Part shown: piece after piece, positions 1 to 63,432 of the stretch | How positions within the stretch are numbered: the stretch's first letter is position 1 | How the letters are laid out: each line of letters opens with the position of its first letter | The notes under the pieces: model-generated | Told to the model about the DNA's origin: nothing | Database searches by the model: none | The model's input: only the letters and a program-made list of their open reading frames with translations | IMG/VR virus record: IMGVR_UViG_3300025000_000097 | Location: 1-63,432 of that record | Direction: 5' to 3' (one strand) | DNA: 63,432 bases | DNA from: a virus | Made by a program: the position numbers and the translations under genes

Positions 1-104
1 TCTTACAGGTTCCATCCGCATTCTTCATCGGCTTGCCCTGGGGGTCCAGCAGCACCCCGGCTGGCGGCTTATCTCCACCGAGTGCGCCTTCTGGATTGCC
101 TATG
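1..104. repeat. Terminal assembly overlap, left copy
   Basis: Bases 6-104 are identical to 63334-63432. Bases 1-4 also match 63329-63332, and base 5 (a) differs from 63333 (c). An exact 99-base end overlap is what a k-mer assembler leaves when it closes a circle. The join restores one open portal frame, so the window is a complete circular or circularly permuted genome of about 63,328 bases. Confidence 0.93.
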
Positions 105-1528
105 TCGCCCAGGCTTGGGCCTTCCTCATCGATCAGCGCCTGATCTGCCTCAATATCATACTCCTCACTGAGCACGCCCCGCCGTACGAGCTCCGTGCAG
201 TAGGCAGTGCGGCTTATGTCCTTACGTGCCCGCCCTTTATCCAGAGCATCGAGGTCAGGCTGATTGCCCATGTTGCTGGTCAGGTCACACTCAAACATGA
301 TGCTACCAGAATCGACGTCAGGAGTGCCCAGCCAGGCCAGGGTGAACTTGATTGCCTGCTCCAAGGCATCGCTCAGGTCCTCGCCCATAGATTCCAGGAT
401 GGCTGCGCTCTGCGATGTATCGATGGCCTTCGCGGTCGCTGTCACATTCCCTGTCTTGGGCATGATCGGCTCCAATGCGCATATCTTCATCTGATTCTCG
501 AGGTCCTCGAGGTCCTGATGGCCTGCTTCGATCGCCTTGCCTGTGTGCTCGACGAAAGTGAGCTTCGACTGCGGGTCGCTGTTGGTCACCATGGTGTTCG
601 GGCCTACAGCCAGCTTGTTGTTGCTGCCGTCAGACTCGAATCCGGCGCCGAAGAGGATCGGTACGCGGGCAACGTGCAGGATGTTCCGCTGATCGCTGCT
701 CGACTGCCAGTGTGCCAGGTTGAGCTCGGCCAGCTTGGCCAGGGGTGGCTCACCGGTCATGAACCCCGTCCGCTTGGTGTAGACCGGGACTAGCGGGATG
801 AAGTCCAGGGTGGTCACCCCGCTCTTCACGATAGCCCAGTCGCCAGCATCGTTTACGCGCCAGGTCTCCCATCTCCCGGGATAGAGTACCTTGACCTGAT
901 CTATATTGGTAGTGCCCCAATCGCCGTTTTGTTCCTCAACGTGCTCCATGATCTGCAACCTGGCCAGACGTTCCTGCCCGTTGATTACCTCTGTCCGCCA
1001 GTTGATGACATTCTCCTGCTTGACATGCACCCAGAACGGACGCACGCCAGCAGCCTTCTCATCGGCCTTGCTCATAACAGGAGGTTCTGCGCCTTCCTCG
1101 GCAGCAGGATCAGCCTGCAAGGCCATGCCTGCATAGTCTACCAGCAGGTAGTCGACCCCGGGCTGAAGAGCACTTTCAAAGAGGTCACGCACGAAGCGTC
1201 GCAGGTCACGCCCTGTCAGATCGATATCTGCAAATAACGCCTCCACCTCGCCGGGTATCTTCTCCAGCTTGATGCCGTTACGGAACAGGCGCCCTACCAT
1301 CTCCTCTATGGTCATGCCATACTTGTTGAAGAGAAAGGTCCGCGCTAGGCGGTTCTTGTAGAGGTCGTCAGTTTCCTTCGGCTCCTGGGGGAGGAACTCC
1401 TTCCCGGCAGCCCGCATCCCATATGTTCCGGCCATCAGTGTTCTCGGAAGCTGTGCTGCTATCATCATCGCGTTGTGTGCAGCATTAGGCGTGCTCACAT
1501 TTGGCTTGTCTTCGGTCTTCTTGCTCAT
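1..1528 (-). CDS. Portal protein, DUF4055-like (5' part; continues at the window end)
   Basis: This is the head vertex protein through which DNA enters and leaves the capsid. The frame opens at ATG 1528 (MSKKTEDKP) behind AGGAGA and stays open to base 1. It then continues in frame at 63333 to a TAA at 63285, giving about 523 residues across the join. The N-terminal segment LARTFLFNKYGMT, followed by VGRLFRNG, is typical of DUF4055 portal-like proteins as I know them. The place directly after TerL and before a MuF head protein is the classic terminase-portal-MuF order. The final residues differ at base 5: Cys in this copy, Trp in the right-hand copy. Confidence 0.85.
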   Translation of the reverse strand, partial: MSKKTEDKPNVSTPNAAHNAMMIAAQLPRTLMAGTYGMRAAGKEFLPQEPKETDDLYKNRLARTFLFNKYGMTIEEMVGRLFRNGIKLEKIPGEVEALFADIDLTGRDLRRFVRDLFESALQPGVDYLLVDYAGMALQADPAAEEGAEPPVMSKADEKAAGVRPFWVHVKQENVINWRTEVINGQERLARLQIMEHVEEQNGDWGTTNIDQVKVLYPGRWETWRVNDAGDWAIVKSGVTTLDFIPLVPVYTKRTGFMTGEPPLAKLAELNLAHWQSSSDQRNILHVARVPILFGAGFESDGSNNKLAVGPNTMVTNSDPQSKLTFVEHTGKAIEAGHQDLEDLENQMKICALEPIMPKTGNVTATAKAIDTSQSAAILESMGEDLSDALEQAIKFTLAWLGTPDVDSGSIMFECDLTSNMGNQPDLDALDKGRARKDISRTAYCTELVRRGVLSEEYDIEADQALIDEEGPSLGDIGNPEGALGGDKPPAGVLLDPQGKPMKNADGTCK

Positions 1529-1543
1529 GAGGTCATCTCCTTG

Positions 1544-1747
1544 TTAGCAGGTATATCCATATGTGGAGCTCAGTAGGTAGTTATCAAGTGGCTGCTCGGG
1601 CTCGGTATCGTAGCAGCCCTCCTTCAGGGCCCTGATGCACATCCCGCAGTGCTGCTGGCTCCAACCGTGTTCTGTGCAGGTGGCATCCATTAGCTGCTGT
1701 GCATCGAGGTTGGCCCCTTCGTGCAGGGCGTGCATCATGGGTATCAT
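1544..1747 (-). CDS. Small Cys-containing protein between TerL and portal
   Basis: A 67-residue protein whose ATG overlaps the TerL stop codon (ATGA), so it is probably translated by coupling. It has six cysteines spread over its length, including CTEHGWSQQHCGMC near the middle and a C-terminal Cys, which suggests metal binding or disulfides. I do not recognise the family. Its place inside the packaging operon suggests a head or packaging accessory role, which is inference only. Confidence 0.65.
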   Translation of the reverse strand: MIPMMHALHEGANLDAQQLMDATCTEHGWSQQHCGMCIRALKEGCYDTEPEQPLDNYLLSSTYGYTC

Positions 1748-4275
1748 ATGTTGAGCTCGCTTGAGCCTGATTCTGCAGTCCGCTTGTAGATTCTGTACCG
1801 AGTCTCGTCGCCGCAGTTGTGGACTAATAACCCATTTGACAATGTAAAGGCGTGATAGTTAGGAACATTTAGGCAGTATACATCGGCATTAGTATCCGGC
1901 AACACATGCACCACGTCTAAGTTTCCAACGCAGCTTTGCTCCACAGCTTCTACTACAGGTCTTAGTGAAAAGATACTTGTTAACAGTAAATGGAGCGCTG
2001 CAAATGATACAGACACGATCTTCATTGTCTGTTCCAGCGGCACCGCGTGCTGCCGTTTTACAGGCATTGGAGCAGTATTTAAACTGTGCCCAATTAGTAG
2101 CCTTAACTGTTTTAATGGCGCCACAATGCATGCAAGCCATCTGTTTTTCAGGCATAAGTTGCCCGTTGCGTTTACCTTGCTCACTGTGCCAGGCCAATCC
2201 TTCAGGCGACCCGTGCCATGTGGCAGCAGCCATTCGGGCCGTATCTGAGAGTTTGTTATTTGTTCTGCTACCCGTGTGTAATGAGGCATGCTCACTATTT
2301 GTGCATAAGTTAAGGTTTGAAGACTGGTTATTGCTCTTATTTTCATCATCGTGATGCACTGTAAAACCTTCTGGAATTGGCCCATGATGATACGTATAAA
2401 CCACCCTGTGTAATCGGATACCATCATGCTGAAAGTAAGGCCCGCAAAGGTAGTACTTAATACCAGCGAACTCTTGGATTGTAGCGCTGATTTGAAATGG
2501 CTCCACAATAACCTCCTAATAGAAACGTTATAAATATTATAACATGTTTCATTAGATAAGTAAAGCGCTTCTTTCCATCCATCTTTCGTCATGAAGAGGT
2601 GATCTGGGGTACAGCGCACATGGGATCCGTCTGAAAGAGTAACCGTTACGGTCTCTGCTTGTTGCTTTACTAGTTGACAGTTATCATACGGCGCCCAGAT
2701 ACCACCGGCAGTAAGCACGCAGCCTGTTGTGCCCACCAATTCTAGCAGGGTCTTAACGCCAGCAGCAGTAAGTATGGTGGTATCCCCTGTGAAGCAATGG
2801 TCCTCGCACTTGGTGTCCACATCATCTGGCTTATCGGTATCACGAGGCATCATGGGGACGGTCCTGATCCACCCGCGACACGTGTTGAACACGAACAGCC
2901 CTGGTTCTTCCATCGGAGTGGTCCGATAGATAGGGTTCATGTGCTCATCCTTATCCAGTGCGCTGCTCAGGAGGTTCCTCAGCAGTTCCCACCCGGCACG
3001 CCGTGATCCAGGGCTCTTGTTGGCAGGCAACCAGGTCACGCCTTCCTTCTTCATCTCTGCAGCGATGCTCTTACCATCGAGCACGTCGAATATCGATGAG
3101 TCAGCCGGCCCTGGTTTCGGCTTCGTCTTGATGAACCCACCTTGGAGCATAGCAGTCTCACGCTCAACGATCCCCTTGGCGATATCCTTGGTCAGCATCT
3201 CCAGACCGACGTTGGGCTGATCCTCCTTGCAGCCGTACCATTCATTGATACGGAACAAGGTGCCCTTAGGCCAGGACTTAAACTGCGGACTGACTCGCCC
3301 GGTCATCGGATTCTGTGTGTTGCCGCAGTGGATGAGCGTCCCATCCGATTCTGCCCACCAACCGATGCTGAAGGGCTTGCTGCTGCCATAGTCGAAGGAT
3401 CGATCGATGCGCCAGGAGTGCGGAATGTTGAAGGGCTCGATCTCGTGCACAGCCTGATTGTACCACGCGCCGAGGATCGAGCCTGCCGTGATGTTCCAAT
3501 CCCCCTCTAGCCAGGCTTTCCGCTTATTCTCATCCTTGATCCCCATCAGCTTCGCGATGTACAGTGGATCGTTGTCGACCAGCTTCCTATTCTCTCGCCA
3601 GTCGCCGTGGATGTAGCAGCGACGCATATAAATCTTCTCGCCTGTGAGCGGATGGATGAAGGTCTCGATTACAGGCTTCTTCGCTGGGCCCTGATCGATG
3701 AACCGAGCCTTCACCCAGTGATGACCGATGCCGAAGGGGTTGCACGTGCCACCGTAGAAGCGAGGCATGGGCAGGATTCCAGGGGGCGCTTCATATGAGG
3801 ACCTGTTACAGGACTTCATGCTGTCGTAACAGCCGCTGTCTGCCCAGTTGGTAAGCTCCTCCCAGCCGATGAACGGATACTCATGACCGTGGTAGTTCCA
3901 ATAATCGATCGCGTTGTCCATGTAGCGGAAGAGGAGTGTCTCACCCCCAGGGAACTCCCACTGATGCTCGCTCTTGTTGTACCGTGCGAAAGGGAATATC
4001 TGCTTGAACCACTTCTGGCTCTTTGCAATGACGTCAGACAGCTGCTTGTAGGTCTTGCGAAAGATGATCCCTCTCCAGGCCTCTCCGTAGCCCTCGCCCA
4101 CGTGCTGTGCGAACTTCATCAGGAGAGCATCGGTCTTCCCGGGGCCTCGCGTGCCCGCGTACAGTACCTCTTCATAGGGGCACGTGAGAAATGAGACCTG
4201 GGAGCCTGGTTGGGGCTCCCAGATGATGATCGGGTCTGGTACGTGGATAAGTTGTTTGTCCTGGGGGGCTTCCAC
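1744..4275 (-). CDS. terL: Terminase large subunit interrupted by an intein
   Basis: This is the ATPase/nuclease that pumps DNA into the procapsid and cuts it. Extein residues 1-493 and 821-843 make the mature protein of about 516 residues; residues 494-820 are an intein. Walker A is GTRGPGKT at 41-48 and Walker B is FIGWEE at 135-140. The RNase H-like nuclease begins with FDYGSS near residue 290. Joining the exteins gives EDH|CGDETRY, the conserved C-terminal metal-binding motif (EDHxxDxxRY). Translation probably starts at GTG 4275, directly after the stop of the upstream gene; the ribosome site is weak, so coupling is likely. The central part of the intein is an out-of-frame reading of a nested HNH gene. 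Confidence 0.95.
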   Translation of the reverse strand: MEAPQDKQLIHVPDPIIIWEPQPGSQVSFLTCPYEEVLYAGTRGPGKTDALLMKFAQHVGEGYGEAWRGIIFRKTYKQLSDVIAKSQKWFKQIFPFARYNKSEHQWEFPGGETLLFRYMDNAIDYWNYHGHEYPFIGWEELTNWADSGCYDSMKSCNRSSYEAPPGILPMPRFYGGTCNPFGIGHHWVKARFIDQGPAKKPVIETFIHPLTGEKIYMRRCYIHGDWRENRKLVDNDPLYIAKLMGIKDENKRKAWLEGDWNITAGSILGAWYNQAVHEIEPFNIPHSWRIDRSFDYGSSKPFSIGWWAESDGTLIHCGNTQNPMTGRVSPQFKSWPKGTLFRINEWYGCKEDQPNVGLEMLTKDIAKGIVERETAMLQGGFIKTKPKPGPADSSIFDVLDGKSIAAEMKKEGVTWLPANKSPGSRRAGWELLRNLLSSALDKDEHMNPIYRTTPMEEPGLFVFNTCRGWIRTVPMMPRDTDKPDDVDTKCEDHCFTGDTTILTAAGVKTLLELVGTTGCVLTAGGIWAPYDNCQLVKQQAETVTVTLSDGSHVRCTPDHLFMTKDGWKEALYLSNETCYNIYNVSIRRLLWSHFKSALQSKSSLVLSTTFAGLTFSMMVSDYTGWFIRIIMGQFQKVLQCITMMKIRAITSLQTLTYAQIVSMPHYTRVAEQITNSQIRPEWLLPHGTGRLKDWPGTVSKVNATGNLCLKNRWLACIVAPLKQLRLLIGHSLNTAPMPVKRQHAVPLEQTMKIVSVSFAALHLLLTSIFSLRPVVEAVEQSCVGNLDVVHVLPDTNADVYCLNVPNYHAFTLSNGLLVHNCGDETRYRIYKRTAESGSSELNI
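1889..2506 (-). CDS. HNH homing endonuclease nested out of frame in the TerL intein
   Basis: A 205-residue protein from GTG 2506. It has a strong Shine-Dalgarno site (AGGAGG at 2512-2517, 5-base spacing) and a good promoter just upstream. The HNH core is VHHDDENKSNN...NLNL...SEHASLH at residues 50-77. Two CxxC-type zinc fingers follow (CMHC...CSNAC and CIIC...CSRSC), as in HNH_3 homing nucleases. It lies wholly inside the intein coding sequence, two bases out of phase with terL on the same strand. Its likely role is to cut intein-less terL alleles and spread the element. Separate expression from the splicing protein is the unusual feature. Confidence 0.92.
   Translation of the reverse strand: MEPFQISATIQEFAGIKYYLCGPYFQHDGIRLHRVVYTYHHGPIPEGFTVHHDDENKSNNQSSNLNLCTNSEHASLHTGSRTNNKLSDTARMAAATWHGSPEGLAWHSEQGKRNGQLMPEKQMACMHCGAIKTVKATNWAQFKYCSNACKTAARGAAGTDNEDRVCIICSAPFTVNKYLFTKTCSRSCGAKLRWKLRRGACVAGY
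2536..2564 (-). promoter_or_regulatory. Promoter of the nested HNH gene
   Basis: On the minus strand the -35 is TTTACT (2559-2564), followed by a 17-base spacer and a perfect TATAAT (2536-2541). It lies 30 bases before the GTG start and inside the intein coding sequence. The same TTTACT-N17 layout drives the gene at 38000. Confidence 0.75.
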
Positions 4276-4509
4276 TTACTTCTTGCTCCGCGGCTTGAAC
4301 AGTGAACCGCCAGCTGATTTATAACCCTCACGGAATGTGGTTTTACCTGCTGTGAAGTCGCGTATATTCTTAGATGCCACTCTACCTTGTAGCCTACCTA
4401 AGGACTTTGCCTCATTGCTGGCGGTGGACTTCCCGAAGCGCACCTTAGCAGTTGAGCTCCCACCTTTGCCTGCTGCGAACCATCCCTTGCTGTCGTGATT
4501 CTTGTTCAT
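4276..4509 (-). CDS. Small basic protein between TerS and TerL
   Basis: A 77-residue protein very rich in Lys, Arg, Gly and Ser, ending KPRSKK. Its ATG (4509) overlaps the end of terS and its stop abuts the GTG of terL, so it sits inside the packaging operon. The composition suggests nucleic-acid binding or an internal head component. The family is not recognised. Confidence 0.7.
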   Translation of the reverse strand: MNKNHDSKGWFAAGKGGSSTAKVRFGKSTASNEAKSLGRLQGRVASKNIRDFTAGKTTFREGYKSAGGSLFKPRSKK

Positions 4510-5201
4510 GGCTCCTCCTCCAGGTCTACTGTGTCGATAAGATTCTCTTGTGCTGCTCCAGCCTCAGTTATGCCCTCTTCCTCTTCCCACTGCTGGATGC
4601 TCGGCCGGTTCGGAACGCGAAGGACGCCTCCGATCTGTTTGCTCGGGTCGTCTACCTTGTCCCGGAACATAGCCATAGTCTTGCCTAGCAGTTCGAGCGC
4701 CTTCAGCTGATCGTGAGTCTTAACCTCTAACTTCGTGCCTCCACCTTTGATCTTTGTCTCTGTAACAGAGTGAATGCCCGCAGACTCGTGAGGCAGTAGC
4801 TGATTGAGGTCTCTCAATGTTACCTTATTCTTCTCCCACGTCATGATCTCAGCAACGTCGGCAAAGGCGATCGCTGCTATTGCATTGAGTACCTTGTCTG
4901 GGCTCACTTTGCAGCGGTCGGCCCGAGCATCCATGCCAGCCTGGATCGCCTCGAGTATCTCTGGCTTCTGCATAAGCTGGTGGGCTGTGCTTGACGCAGT
5001 GTGCTCGGAATAACCCGCAAAGATTGCTGCTCGCTTCTGGCCACCATGTAGATGCCCCCAACGCAGCATACCGTTAACGAATCCTCGCCGCATAACAACA
5101 GAGCCCAGCTCTTTGTCGAGGGTCTCGCGAGCAGTTCTGGCACGCTTCTCTTTGTTGGTCTCGGGCTGCTCAGGTGCTGAATTTATTGTTTGGTCGCTCA
5201 T
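4506..5201 (-). CDS. terS: Terminase small subunit (Terminase_2-like)
   Basis: This is the DNA-recognition subunit of the packaging motor. From ATG 5201 (MSDQTINS) it is 231 residues. The central part (FVNGMLRWGHLHGGQKRAAIFAGYS, then TASSTAHQLMQKPEI) has the helix-turn-helix layout of PF03592: repeated recruitment of A..AGYS and a conserved LM..PEI. The C-terminal third is acidic (QWEEEEGI, DLEEEP), typical of the TerL/portal contact region. An upstream TTG at 5231 would add ten residues, but it overlaps the putative promoter. I see no Shine-Dalgarno site before 5201. Confidence 0.88.
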   Translation of the reverse strand: MSDQTINSAPEQPETNKEKRARTARETLDKELGSVVMRRGFVNGMLRWGHLHGGQKRAAIFAGYSEHTASSTAHQLMQKPEILEAIQAGMDARADRCKVSPDKVLNAIAAIAFADVAEIMTWEKNKVTLRDLNQLLPHESAGIHSVTETKIKGGGTKLEVKTHDQLKALELLGKTMAMFRDKVDDPSKQIGGVLRVPNRPSIQQWEEEEGITEAGAAQENLIDTVDLEEEP

Positions 5202-24789: not shown

Positions 24790-26227
24790 TCAAAACTCGT
24801 AATAGCACCTCGTGGCAGGTTCGATAATATGCAGTGATTGCTTGGCTCGGGTGGCCCCTACGTAAAAGACCCTATGTTCGCAGTCATTGTCCTGCTGATA
24901 ACCCTCGTACGTCTTGGGGCTCATATCGGTCATTAGCAGCACGTTATCCGCCTCCCCACCCTTGACGCCATGGATGGTCGAGATGTTTATTCTGGGTGTC
25001 TTGGTGATGCTCTCACCTCGCCGCAGCATACTTATATAGTACTCACGATCATCGTATGATATACCTGTCAGAGCTTCATGCCAAATCTGGTTGCCCCAGG
25101 GCTTGCCCCGTAGCTGTTTCGGTAGAAAGGTTTCTACCAAGGTGCGCTCCTCTTGCGTAATGGCTTTACCCTTACGATGATCCTCCCACCAACGGATGGC
25201 CTTCTGATGGTTTATGGTTACAGCAGGAGCACCTCTGAACGTATACGGTATTCCCTCATTGCGTACGATCTTAACCAATGACTGCAACAGGTGAATGTTC
25301 CTAGCAAGCAGCAACCAGGTACCAGCGCCCAAGTCAACGTCGTCTGGCTGCCGATGCCACTCAACCAAGCCCGCTTCATCCTTCGCCTGGAATGGCTTAT
25401 CAAACCGCCTACTGATCTGCGAGGTGATCCCTACGGCCAGATCATGAACGCTCCTGGGGATACGCCAGGATTGATCCAGGATGATCCTCTTACCCTTGAG
25501 CCCGAGCACGTGGTCGATATCTGCCCCAGACCATTGGAATATGCCTTGATCGTCATCTGCCCCGATGTAGACCCGTTGCGCGTTGCAGAAGGCTCGCCGC
25601 GCGAACTCCCACTGCAACGTGCTTAGGTCTTGTGCTTCATCTATTATAACGACGTCGACGTCTGCTGTAGCATCAGCAGCCTCGAGCATGTCGGAGAAGT
25701 CGATTAGGTTCTTGACCTTCTTGTATTCTTTGAGGGTAGCTATGAAACGTCTGAACTCATACCAGTCCAGCTCCTCATTGCCCATGATATCCCAGACAGC
25801 CTCTGCTGTCATGCACCGTGATCTTGCCAGCCCATCGAGGAAAGTGTAGCGGTCGCCGAGGAAACGGCTGGAAGGGATGCCCTCTTCGGCATCGAAGCGG
25901 GTGGAGAACTCTACACCAAGCATGTCACCGAGCTCATGATAATTCTTTGACTGGATTACCTCATCACGCCGCACGCCCAGAATGCGAAAAGCCAGCGAGT
26001 GCAGCGTTCTGAAGTGGATGAGGTTTTGCTTTGAGAGTCTAAATTCTGTCATGACCCGCTCCATTGCCTCTTCCACTGCCTTCTTGGTGAATGACACGAA
26101 AGCAACGCGCTCAGGAGCGACACCGCGGGCTATTTCCTGCTTGATGATCGAAATGAGCTTCGTAGTTTTACCTGTACTCAATTCAGCCCGGCGGGCCAAG
26201 TATCAGTGTCTGCTCTTGCTCACTCAT
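24790..26227 (-). CDS. UvrD-like superfamily 1 helicase with a broken Walker A frame
   Basis: ATG 26227 (MSEQEQTLILGPPG) is followed at once by TGA (26183-26185). The rest of the helicase reads in the +1 frame from 26199: ELSTGKTTKLI, FVSFTKKAVEEAM, FRTLHSLAFRIL, VVIIDEAQDLS, GADDDQGIFQWSGAD, SWRIPRSV and the C-terminal ISTIHGVKGGEADNVLL...FYVGATRAKQSL. These are SF1A motifs Ia to VI. Skipping one base gives 478 residues with Walker A G-ELST-GKT. Without it the P-loop is lost. It is a frameshift, a recoded site or an assembly indel. Confidence 0.82.
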
Positions 26228-26637
26228 ACTTTAGCCCGCCGGATTCCTGTGTCACTCCATTGCTGCAACATGTGATACCTCGCATGCTCTGATTGATTAG
26301 GGAACACCTTAATATTATCAGGCGCAAAATTAGTGCGATCATTATCTTCATGATGCACTACCTCATCTGGAAGTAATTCTCTTCCTAATAACTGCACCGC
26401 TATTACTCGGTGTGCATGTTGTTGATGTAATTTAGGATAGTGCTTTGCTGTCCCAGTGCCTCTTAACTTTTCTCCGGTATTATGCTGCCCACGTCGAGAC
26501 TGCTCTTCACTTGTTAAGGTCCGCACATTATGACCACTAATAAAACGCATTATTTGACCAGCAACTTGATTGCGATAAGTTCTAGTCTTCTTAGCAATGG
26601 GTGCTGGTTTACCGCAACCACATTCACAAAGTTTCAT
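26224..26637 (-). CDS. HNH endonuclease
   Basis: A 137-residue protein from ATG 26637, which overlaps the upstream stop (ATGA). CECGCGK opens a Cys site. The HNH core is VVHHEDNDRTNFAPDNIKVF...SEHARYH near the C-terminus. Its stop overlaps the ATG of the UvrD-like helicase, whose P-loop lies about 40 bases on. It is probably a free-standing homing nuclease that has inserted beside its target. Confidence 0.87.
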   Translation of the reverse strand: MKLCECGCGKPAPIAKKTRTYRNQVAGQIMRFISGHNVRTLTSEEQSRRGQHNTGEKLRGTGTAKHYPKLHQQHAHRVIAVQLLGRELLPDEVVHHEDNDRTNFAPDNIKVFPNQSEHARYHMLQQWSDTGIRRAKV

Positions 26638-26834
26638 AGGCAGTATTTCTCCCATATTCTGATGATGCGCACAATTTGCCCAAGGGAATAACCTCTGTTG
26701 CCCACCCGCTCCATCATGTCAGAAATGAAGTCGAGCTCCCAATCGATCACATCGTTGTCCTTGATGTAGGCATCTATCTCCTTGACTAGCTCCCATGTGC
26801 GTGCATTATTGTGCTTACTTACGGGCATCGCCAT
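26634..26834 (-). CDS. 66-residue protein, unknown
   Basis: ATG 26834 behind GGAGG. Helical (NNARTWELVKEIDAYIKDN, SLGQIVRIIRIWEKY). The overlap with the membrane protein upstream and HNH gene downstream shows coupling. Not recognised. Confidence 0.7.
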   Translation of the reverse strand: MAMPVSKHNNARTWELVKEIDAYIKDNDVIDWELDFISDMMERVGNRGYSLGQIVRIIRIWEKYCL

Positions 26835-63284: not shown

Positions 63285-63432
63285 TTACTCGGTTTGTGCT
63301 GCAGGTTTCTTAACCTTGGCAGGGTCCATCTTCCAGGTTCCATCCGCATTCTTCATCGGCTTGCCCTGGGGGTCCAGCAGCACCCCGGCTGGCGGCTTAT
63401 CTCCACCGAGTGCGCCTTCTGGATTGCCTATG
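63285..63432 (-). CDS. Portal protein, 3' part (joins 1..1528)
   Basis: The frame enters from the window end and stops at TAA 63285-63287. The last residues are DPAKVKKPAAQTE. Bases 63334-63432 repeat 6-104. Here the residue after DGT is Trp (TGG), where the left copy has Cys (TGT). The MuF ATG follows 16 bases downstream. Confidence 0.85.
   Translation of the reverse strand, partial: IGNPEGALGGDKPPAGVLLDPQGKPMKNADGTWKMDPAKVKKPAAQTE
63329..63432. repeat. Terminal assembly overlap, right copy
   Basis: Second copy of bases 1-104, with one mismatch at 63333. Closing the overlap makes the portal frame continuous (524 codons including the stop). Confidence 0.93.

Follow-up and report, generated by a model that had tools for sequence, protein, structure and literature searches.

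In the usual description of an intein, a single reading frame encodes both the splicing and the endonuclease domains; where the endonuclease is an HNH, as in the Ssp GyrB type, it is an in-frame domain. In the fractured genes reportedly described by Dassa et al. in 2009, a free-standing endonuclease is said to lie between the halves of a split intein. Here we analysed a 63,432-nt stretch of viral DNA (IMG/VR record IMGVR_UViG_3300025000_000097, positions 1 to 63,432; hereafter the window) in which the gene for the large terminase subunit, terL, contains an intein and an HNH gene lies within that intein in another frame of the same strand. Very probably, the locus is a mobile terL intein whose splicing domain encloses, between its two halves and in a different frame, an independent gene for an I-HmuI-like HNH homing endonuclease. 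Like the Ssp GyrB type it combines a Hint domain with an HNH, but the HNH, in frame there, is never in frame in the present family, and in the window it occupies the -1 frame. With the fractured genes it shares an endonuclease gene, apparently expressed on its own, between the N- and C-terminal intein halves (IntN and IntC). The difference is that their host gene is divided into two open reading frames and the products trans-splice, whereas the host frame of the window runs unbroken over the HNH, with no stop between IntN and IntC.

An out-of-frame HNH is also known from the ShiLan domain, which is located in a mycobacteriophage DNA methylase and is actively homing (PMC11855218). As in the window, that HNH is flanked by zinc fingers, starts with GTG and lies at the same offset in a phage gene whose own frame is free of stops. 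However, the ShiLan domain has no intein or intron splicing domain and is believed to be retained in the protein, whereas a complete intein surrounds the HNH of the window and the host gene is the essential terL. The authors of that study found no ribosome-binding site and proposed leaderless initiation; the HNH gene of the window has a promoter and a Shine-Dalgarno (SD) sequence. A preprint from the same group on a non-canonical intein architecture in actinobacteriophages, cited in PMC11855218 for overlapping frames, may overlap with the present finding. Its title refers to actinobacteriophages, whereas nested loci were also found here in Pseudomonadota, Bacteroidota and candidate phyla, either in genomes or in phages. 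Free-standing HNH homing endonucleases with collaborative or intronless homing have been classified in PMC12724721; genes of the same family likewise lie beside the conserved terL motif, but the gene of the window is inside an intein.

The terL intein and the HNH gene nested in it

The intein interrupts the third nuclease motif of TerL between EDH and CGDETRYR. The same motif is unbroken in the TerLs of relatives and in 70 intein-free viral contigs, and in these 70 intein-free genes the residue at +1 is mostly I, A or V. A first-pass annotation, made from the sequence of the window alone, had recognised an intact intein in the TerL frame. We found its landmarks (C1, TPDH in block B, the terminal HN and then Cys+1) together with matches to Pfam Intein_splicing (E = 3e-9) and to NCBIfam intein_Nterm (2e-6) and intein_Cterm (1.5e-6), and C1 and H66 are invariant among 53 homologues. 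With C1, a TxxH block B, a C-terminal HN, a +1 residue of the Cys/Ser/Thr set and a Hint fold, the element has the features of a class 1 intein. Because terL is essential and the intein otherwise breaks its nuclease motif, we infer that the intein splices itself out of TerL. The linker between the two Hint blocks holds no conserved residues. The opening 14 codons of the C-terminal Hint block overlap the last 14 codons of the HNH gene, and since the HNH C-terminus here coincides with a folded block, this stretch is truly dual-coding. Close relatives of the terL intein of the window were not found by megablast in the phage collection. A group I or group II intron in place of an intein was also considered; an Rfam scan of positions 1000-5000 returned no intron family.

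The frame of the HNH gene is offset by +2 from that of terL, i.e., it is the -1 frame on the same strand. The first-pass annotation had read it as a full HNH gene with a GTG start and two zinc fingers, and this reading held: the match to PHROG 15471 ('HNH endonuclease', E = 6e-41) spans the full length of the protein from residue 1, and the HNH_3 profile (7e-16), the catalytic His and Asn residues and the zinc ribbons place it among the HNH_3/I-HmuI-like endonucleases. A sequence profile linked it to I-HmuI (1u3e, E = 4e-4), and the mean predicted local distance difference test score (pLDDT) of its AlphaFold2 (AF2) model was 94. The nested arrangement is no assembly artefact, because a separately assembled contig (L002/L152) is identical to the window across the feature; the two match at 99.99% and differ solely at base 5 of the window, outside the feature. 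A second, free-standing HNH_3 gene of the window (26227-26718, minus strand) is weakly related to the nested HNH (E = 2e-7, family profile).

Table 1. Features of the terL locus in the window (aa, amino acids).
Feature	Positions	Strand	Basis
terL, large terminase subunit including the intein; 843-aa continuous frame, GTG start	1744..4275	-	PHROG 979 E = 3.5e-31; Pfam Terminase_6N; Mesyanzhinovviridae/Yuavirus TerLs ~50% identity
N-extein, 493 aa, ends ...TKCEDH at the conserved third nuclease motif xDHxxDxxRY	2797..4275	-	Alignment with intein-free TerLs
Intein, 327 aa in the terL frame (TerL residues 494-820)	1816..2796	-	Pfam PF14890, TIGR01443/01445; Foldseek to DnaB/RecA/gp41-1/NrdJ-1 inteins
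N-terminal Hint splicing block, intein residues 1-92	2521..2796	-	AF2 pLDDT 90-98
Through-frame linker, intein residues 98-289, mostly low-confidence	1930..2505	-	AF2 pLDDT ~45-60 mostly; 80-85 in one helix, residues 141-160
C-terminal Hint block, intein residues 290-327	1816..1929	-	AF2 pLDDT 95-98
C-extein, 23 aa, CGDETRYRIYKRTAESGSSELNI, Cys+1	1747..1815	-	Alignment with intein-free TerLs
HNH homing-endonuclease gene (putative), 205 aa, GTG start, -1 frame relative to terL	1889..2506	-	Pfam HNH_3 7e-16; PHROG 15471 6e-41; AF2 pLDDT 94
HNH_3 nuclease domain (H51, H52, N60, H73, H77 region)	2285..2416	-	Pfam; conserved alignment columns
Zinc ribbon 1: C125-x2-C128 ... C145-x3-C149	2060..2134	-	Cys invariant in 41-48 homologues
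Zinc ribbon 2: C166-x2-C169 ... C184-x3-C188	1943..2011	-	Sequence; CxxC...CxxxC pattern in full-length homologues
SD sequence AGGAGG, 5 nt before GTG	2512..2517	-	Sequence; SD enrichment in family
Sigma70-like promoter TTTACT-N17-TATAAT	2536..2564	-	Sequence; promoter enrichment in family

Stop codons in the terL frame across the family

The TerL frame was found to be free of stops across the whole overlap, as claimed in the first-pass annotation, while the third frame contains 26 stops there. To obtain expectations, the HNH protein and its own codons were kept and synonymous codons were permuted. An alignment search with the HNH yielded 80 viral and 34 genomic loci, to which phage records were added. 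In 66 loci of this first sample a single stop-free frame joins IntN to IntC, and the HNH uses another frame; about 20 further loci are split inteins and about 30 have no intein. We clustered the loci at 70% identity and took one representative of each cluster for the stop expectations. The 53 clusters were expected to contain 162 stops, and none was observed. For four of these clusters, which have the other phase, the expectation is 10-12 stops apiece, and again 0 are present. Nested HNHs at offset +1 (L054, L063, L072, L088, L089, L098, L099 and L138), with the same expectation and no stops, are the strongest single cases of overprinting under selection. That the +2 offset prevails agrees with the smaller number of stops expected in this phase (~1-5 vs 10-12).

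Nearly all HNHs of the family that occur without an intein carry stops in the corresponding frame (median ~9). The stop counts were bimodal, either 0 or, in split inteins, 5-28, with phage BL3 (2 stops) as the lone exception. Since 'contiguous' had been defined in the first sample by zero stops, we drew a second sample solely by the patterns of the terL-intein junctions, blind to the HNH. It comprised 24 split and 78 contiguous inteins; of the latter, 53 have an out-of-frame HNH and 25 have no HNH, and 23 of these 25 are mini-inteins of the usual size. An in-frame HNH, which the first-pass annotation had named as the sign of a recent frameshift or assembly indel, was present in 0 of these 78 contiguous inteins sampled by junction. 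The second sample added 37 new clusters, for which 83 stops were expected and 0 observed. Joined, the two samples hold 119 contiguous terL-type inteins with an out-of-frame HNH (90 clusters) and none with the HNH in frame, and ~245 stops were expected by synonymous shuffling where 0 were observed. A few contigs are common to both samples. Since the clusters share part of their descent, joint probabilities serve for description only.

The same nested arrangement, with the +2 offset and zero stops, occurs in the named phages TJE1, Highwayman and LS06-2018-MD07. The arrangement is not confined to a single phage but forms a widespread class. In the public records of the three phages (L012, L013 and L014, respectively) the locus is annotated as a single long terL and the HNH gene is unannotated; such records thus conceal nuclease genes under single 'terL' annotations.

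Substitution patterns in the two frames

The first-pass annotation had suggested comparing synonymous and non-synonymous changes in both frames and had concluded that selection keeps both. In close pairs of nested HNHs the changes cluster at third positions of the HNH frame, as they do in free-standing HNHs, and the ratio of non-synonymous to synonymous substitution rates (dN/dS) in this frame is low (0.04/0.33 in the closest pair of relatives). In the through frame the corresponding ratio of proportions (pN/pS) was ~1.0-1.6, and amino-acid identity was no higher than in an unused control frame. These contrasting ratios imply that the HNH is kept as a protein whereas the terL frame is kept merely stop-free. 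The earlier conclusion therefore stands for the amino acids of the HNH; the terL frame is, as far as its sequence tells, selected only against stops and not for its amino acids.

Expression signals of the HNH gene

The AGGAGG sequence at good spacing (2512-2517) and the TTTACT-N17-TATAAT promoter (2564-2536) noted in the first-pass annotation are both present. Across the family, sigma70-like promoters (score of at least 10/12) precede 13 of 53 nested HNHs compared with 3.9% in shuffles (p ~1e-7). SD sequences of at least 5 matched bases were detected at 15 of 66 nested HNH starts and at 4 of 300 internal start codons, although the best among a few candidate starts per locus was taken, which slightly favours enrichment. 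The enriched promoters and good SD sequences support separate expression of the HNH, whose transcript and protein would be made separately from TerL. In the window, a TAG lies in the HNH frame three codons 5' of the GTG, which disfavours an N-terminal fusion of the HNH.

Alleles and evolution of the element

A set of near-identical phages with terLs 98-99% identical includes three states of the site. L250 has an empty site with no intein (EDH-LHDMIRY), and L214 has an intein with a nested HNH and Cys at +1 where L250 has Leu. L226 and L230 have a mini-intein; compared with L214, L226 shows a 573-nt in-frame deletion of the HNH with breakpoints in GCAAAAAC microhomology, and it retains the 3' end of the HNH. 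In the L143 and L153 groups, near-identical terL flanks enclose quite different inteins, one with a nested HNH and the other a mini-intein; by sequence comparison this is an allele replacement at the site. A search for an intein-free allele of the L143/L153 group found none.

Free-standing HNHs of the family begin 30-135 nt past the same terL motif in unrelated phages. In Poludnitsa (L016) an HNH, unannotated, follows terL. In L084 (2622-3712) the HNH lies between the intact 3' end of terL and a terL C-terminus that occurs a second time in diverged form (CCDAMRYACMWAESSSKGVYV), and the through frame is open; this arrangement is possibly an intermediate or a relic of intein loss or target duplication. 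Brochothrix phage BL3 (L015, 1936-2607) has a terL intein in which the HNH is internally deleted and two stops lie between the halves, and its gp2/gp3 look like a recently split intein. In L052 the HNH is antisense to an intein, i.e., nested on the opposite strand.

In the HNH tree, overprinted, split and free-standing states are interleaved. Parsimony gives 18 changes, yet well-supported branches force just 3 for the main nested class. Because so few changes are forced, the number of independent origins cannot be counted reliably from these sequences. These states are most simply explained by a single nuclease lineage that has a single target region and is found beside its target, between the halves of a split intein or overprinted on an intein.

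Proposed mechanism and alternative explanations

In the mechanism that we propose, ribosomes would read the terL frame through the HNH DNA and produce a poorly structured linker, and the Hint domain would excise itself and restore TerL. The HNH would be initiated separately at its own GTG and SD sequence, probably with its own promoter as well; given such a separate start, its synthesis could precede that of terminase or do without it. The expected target is intein-free terL, which the HNH would cut at or close to the xDH|xxDxxRY codons, and repair of the cut would copy in the intein and the HNH together. That the HNH cuts the element-less allele and drives its own copying is suggested by a pattern consistent with homing: a sporadic distribution, one insertion motif across unrelated TerLs and a series of empty, full and mini alleles.

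Several observations weigh against this interpretation. The cut site is deduced solely from insertion positions, and the likeness of the HNH fold to I-HmuI by Foldseek is weak (E = 0.06). The nearest HNH relative available for a direct dN/dS test of the window copy is at ~47% identity. In 29 of the 66 nested HNHs no SD sequence is recognisable, so the case for independent initiation varies in clarity among loci. In the window alone, the terL frame is open in 2.7% of the synonymous shuffles (P = 0.027). The first-pass annotation had put chance openness at 5 in 100,000, assuming equal base use and ignoring the phase of the frame, and this figure overstated the case, since codon pairs that generate stops are few in this phase. 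The strong case for selected openness comes from the sequences of the family and not from the window locus by itself.

The lack of a clear SD sequence in those 29 relatives would also suit programmed frameshifting, in which a shift out of the terL/intein frame would yield a bifunctional intein-endonuclease fusion in place of an independently initiated HNH, and some HNH frames, e.g., that of TJE1, are open upstream into the intein. We consider this unlikely, because promoters and SD sequences are enriched at the HNH start and, in the window, the TAG three codons before the GTG leaves hardly any room to shift.

Still less probable is a role of the HNH in DNA packaging, as a cofactor comparable to HK97 gp74 or to the HNH of the GVE2/HrdP type located between terL and portal; its placement would then reflect this role and not homing. 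Free-standing members of the family do lie between terL and portal, and the Skunavirus HrdP HNHs have been proposed to act in packaging (PMC12724721). However, the family is HNH_3/I-HmuI-like with zinc ribbons and is sporadic (20 phage records with the HNH vs 706 with a related TerL). Moreover, the HNH is found within inteins, has been deleted in L226 without loss of terL, and in PhiSTP1 is antisense to terL.

A split intein of the fractured-gene type, with two polypeptides that trans-splice and the HNH free-standing between them, is highly improbable for the window, since its N and C halves share one frame with no stop, although related loci of this kind do exist (CL2, BL3, Vibrio 1.245.O and ~30-40 others, with 2-28 stops or differing N and C frames). 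An assembly indel or a recent frameshift breaking an ordinary in-frame intein-HNH fusion would agree with intein nucleases being normally in frame, but its probability is negligible given the second contig without any difference within the feature, the 119 homologous loci out of frame, the intact start, SD sequence and stop, the purifying selection on the HNH frame of relatives, and the break that a frameshift would also cause in terL downstream.

Beyond the mobile terL intein with its nested HNH gene, we lean towards a broader account in which a free-standing HNH lineage targeting the terL nuclease motif has repeatedly become nested in inteins located there. Such 'overprinted inteins', often with their own promoter, would form an undescribed and widespread class in which the host frame is a stop-free pass-through and endonuclease expression is uncoupled from that of an essential late gene; split inteins, mini-inteins and flanking copies would be states of one homing cycle. 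Hiding a selfish gene within an essential one in this manner is widespread and, it seems, little described. The ~90 clusters that hold splicing and endonuclease functions in two frames amount to natural large-scale overprinting: the product of one frame folds (AF2 pLDDT 94), while that of the other is largely a poorly ordered linker. With a nested frame the endonuclease can be timed independently of the essential host gene, and the arrangement points to a way in which split inteins with free-standing nucleases might originate or be mended. The empty, full and mini alleles provide a ready set for studying the homing cycle.

The genome

The 63-kb window comes from a phage with kinship to Yuavirus/Mesyanzhinovviridae: its TerL is ~50% identical to those of that family by alignment. 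Genes for the portal, the small terminase subunit, a polymerase, a primase and a helicase were also found on it. The two ends of the window (1-104 and 63329-63432) share a 104-bp overlap in which one base is mismatched, and contig L002 bridges them. Because of these overlapping ends the record is probably a complete genome.
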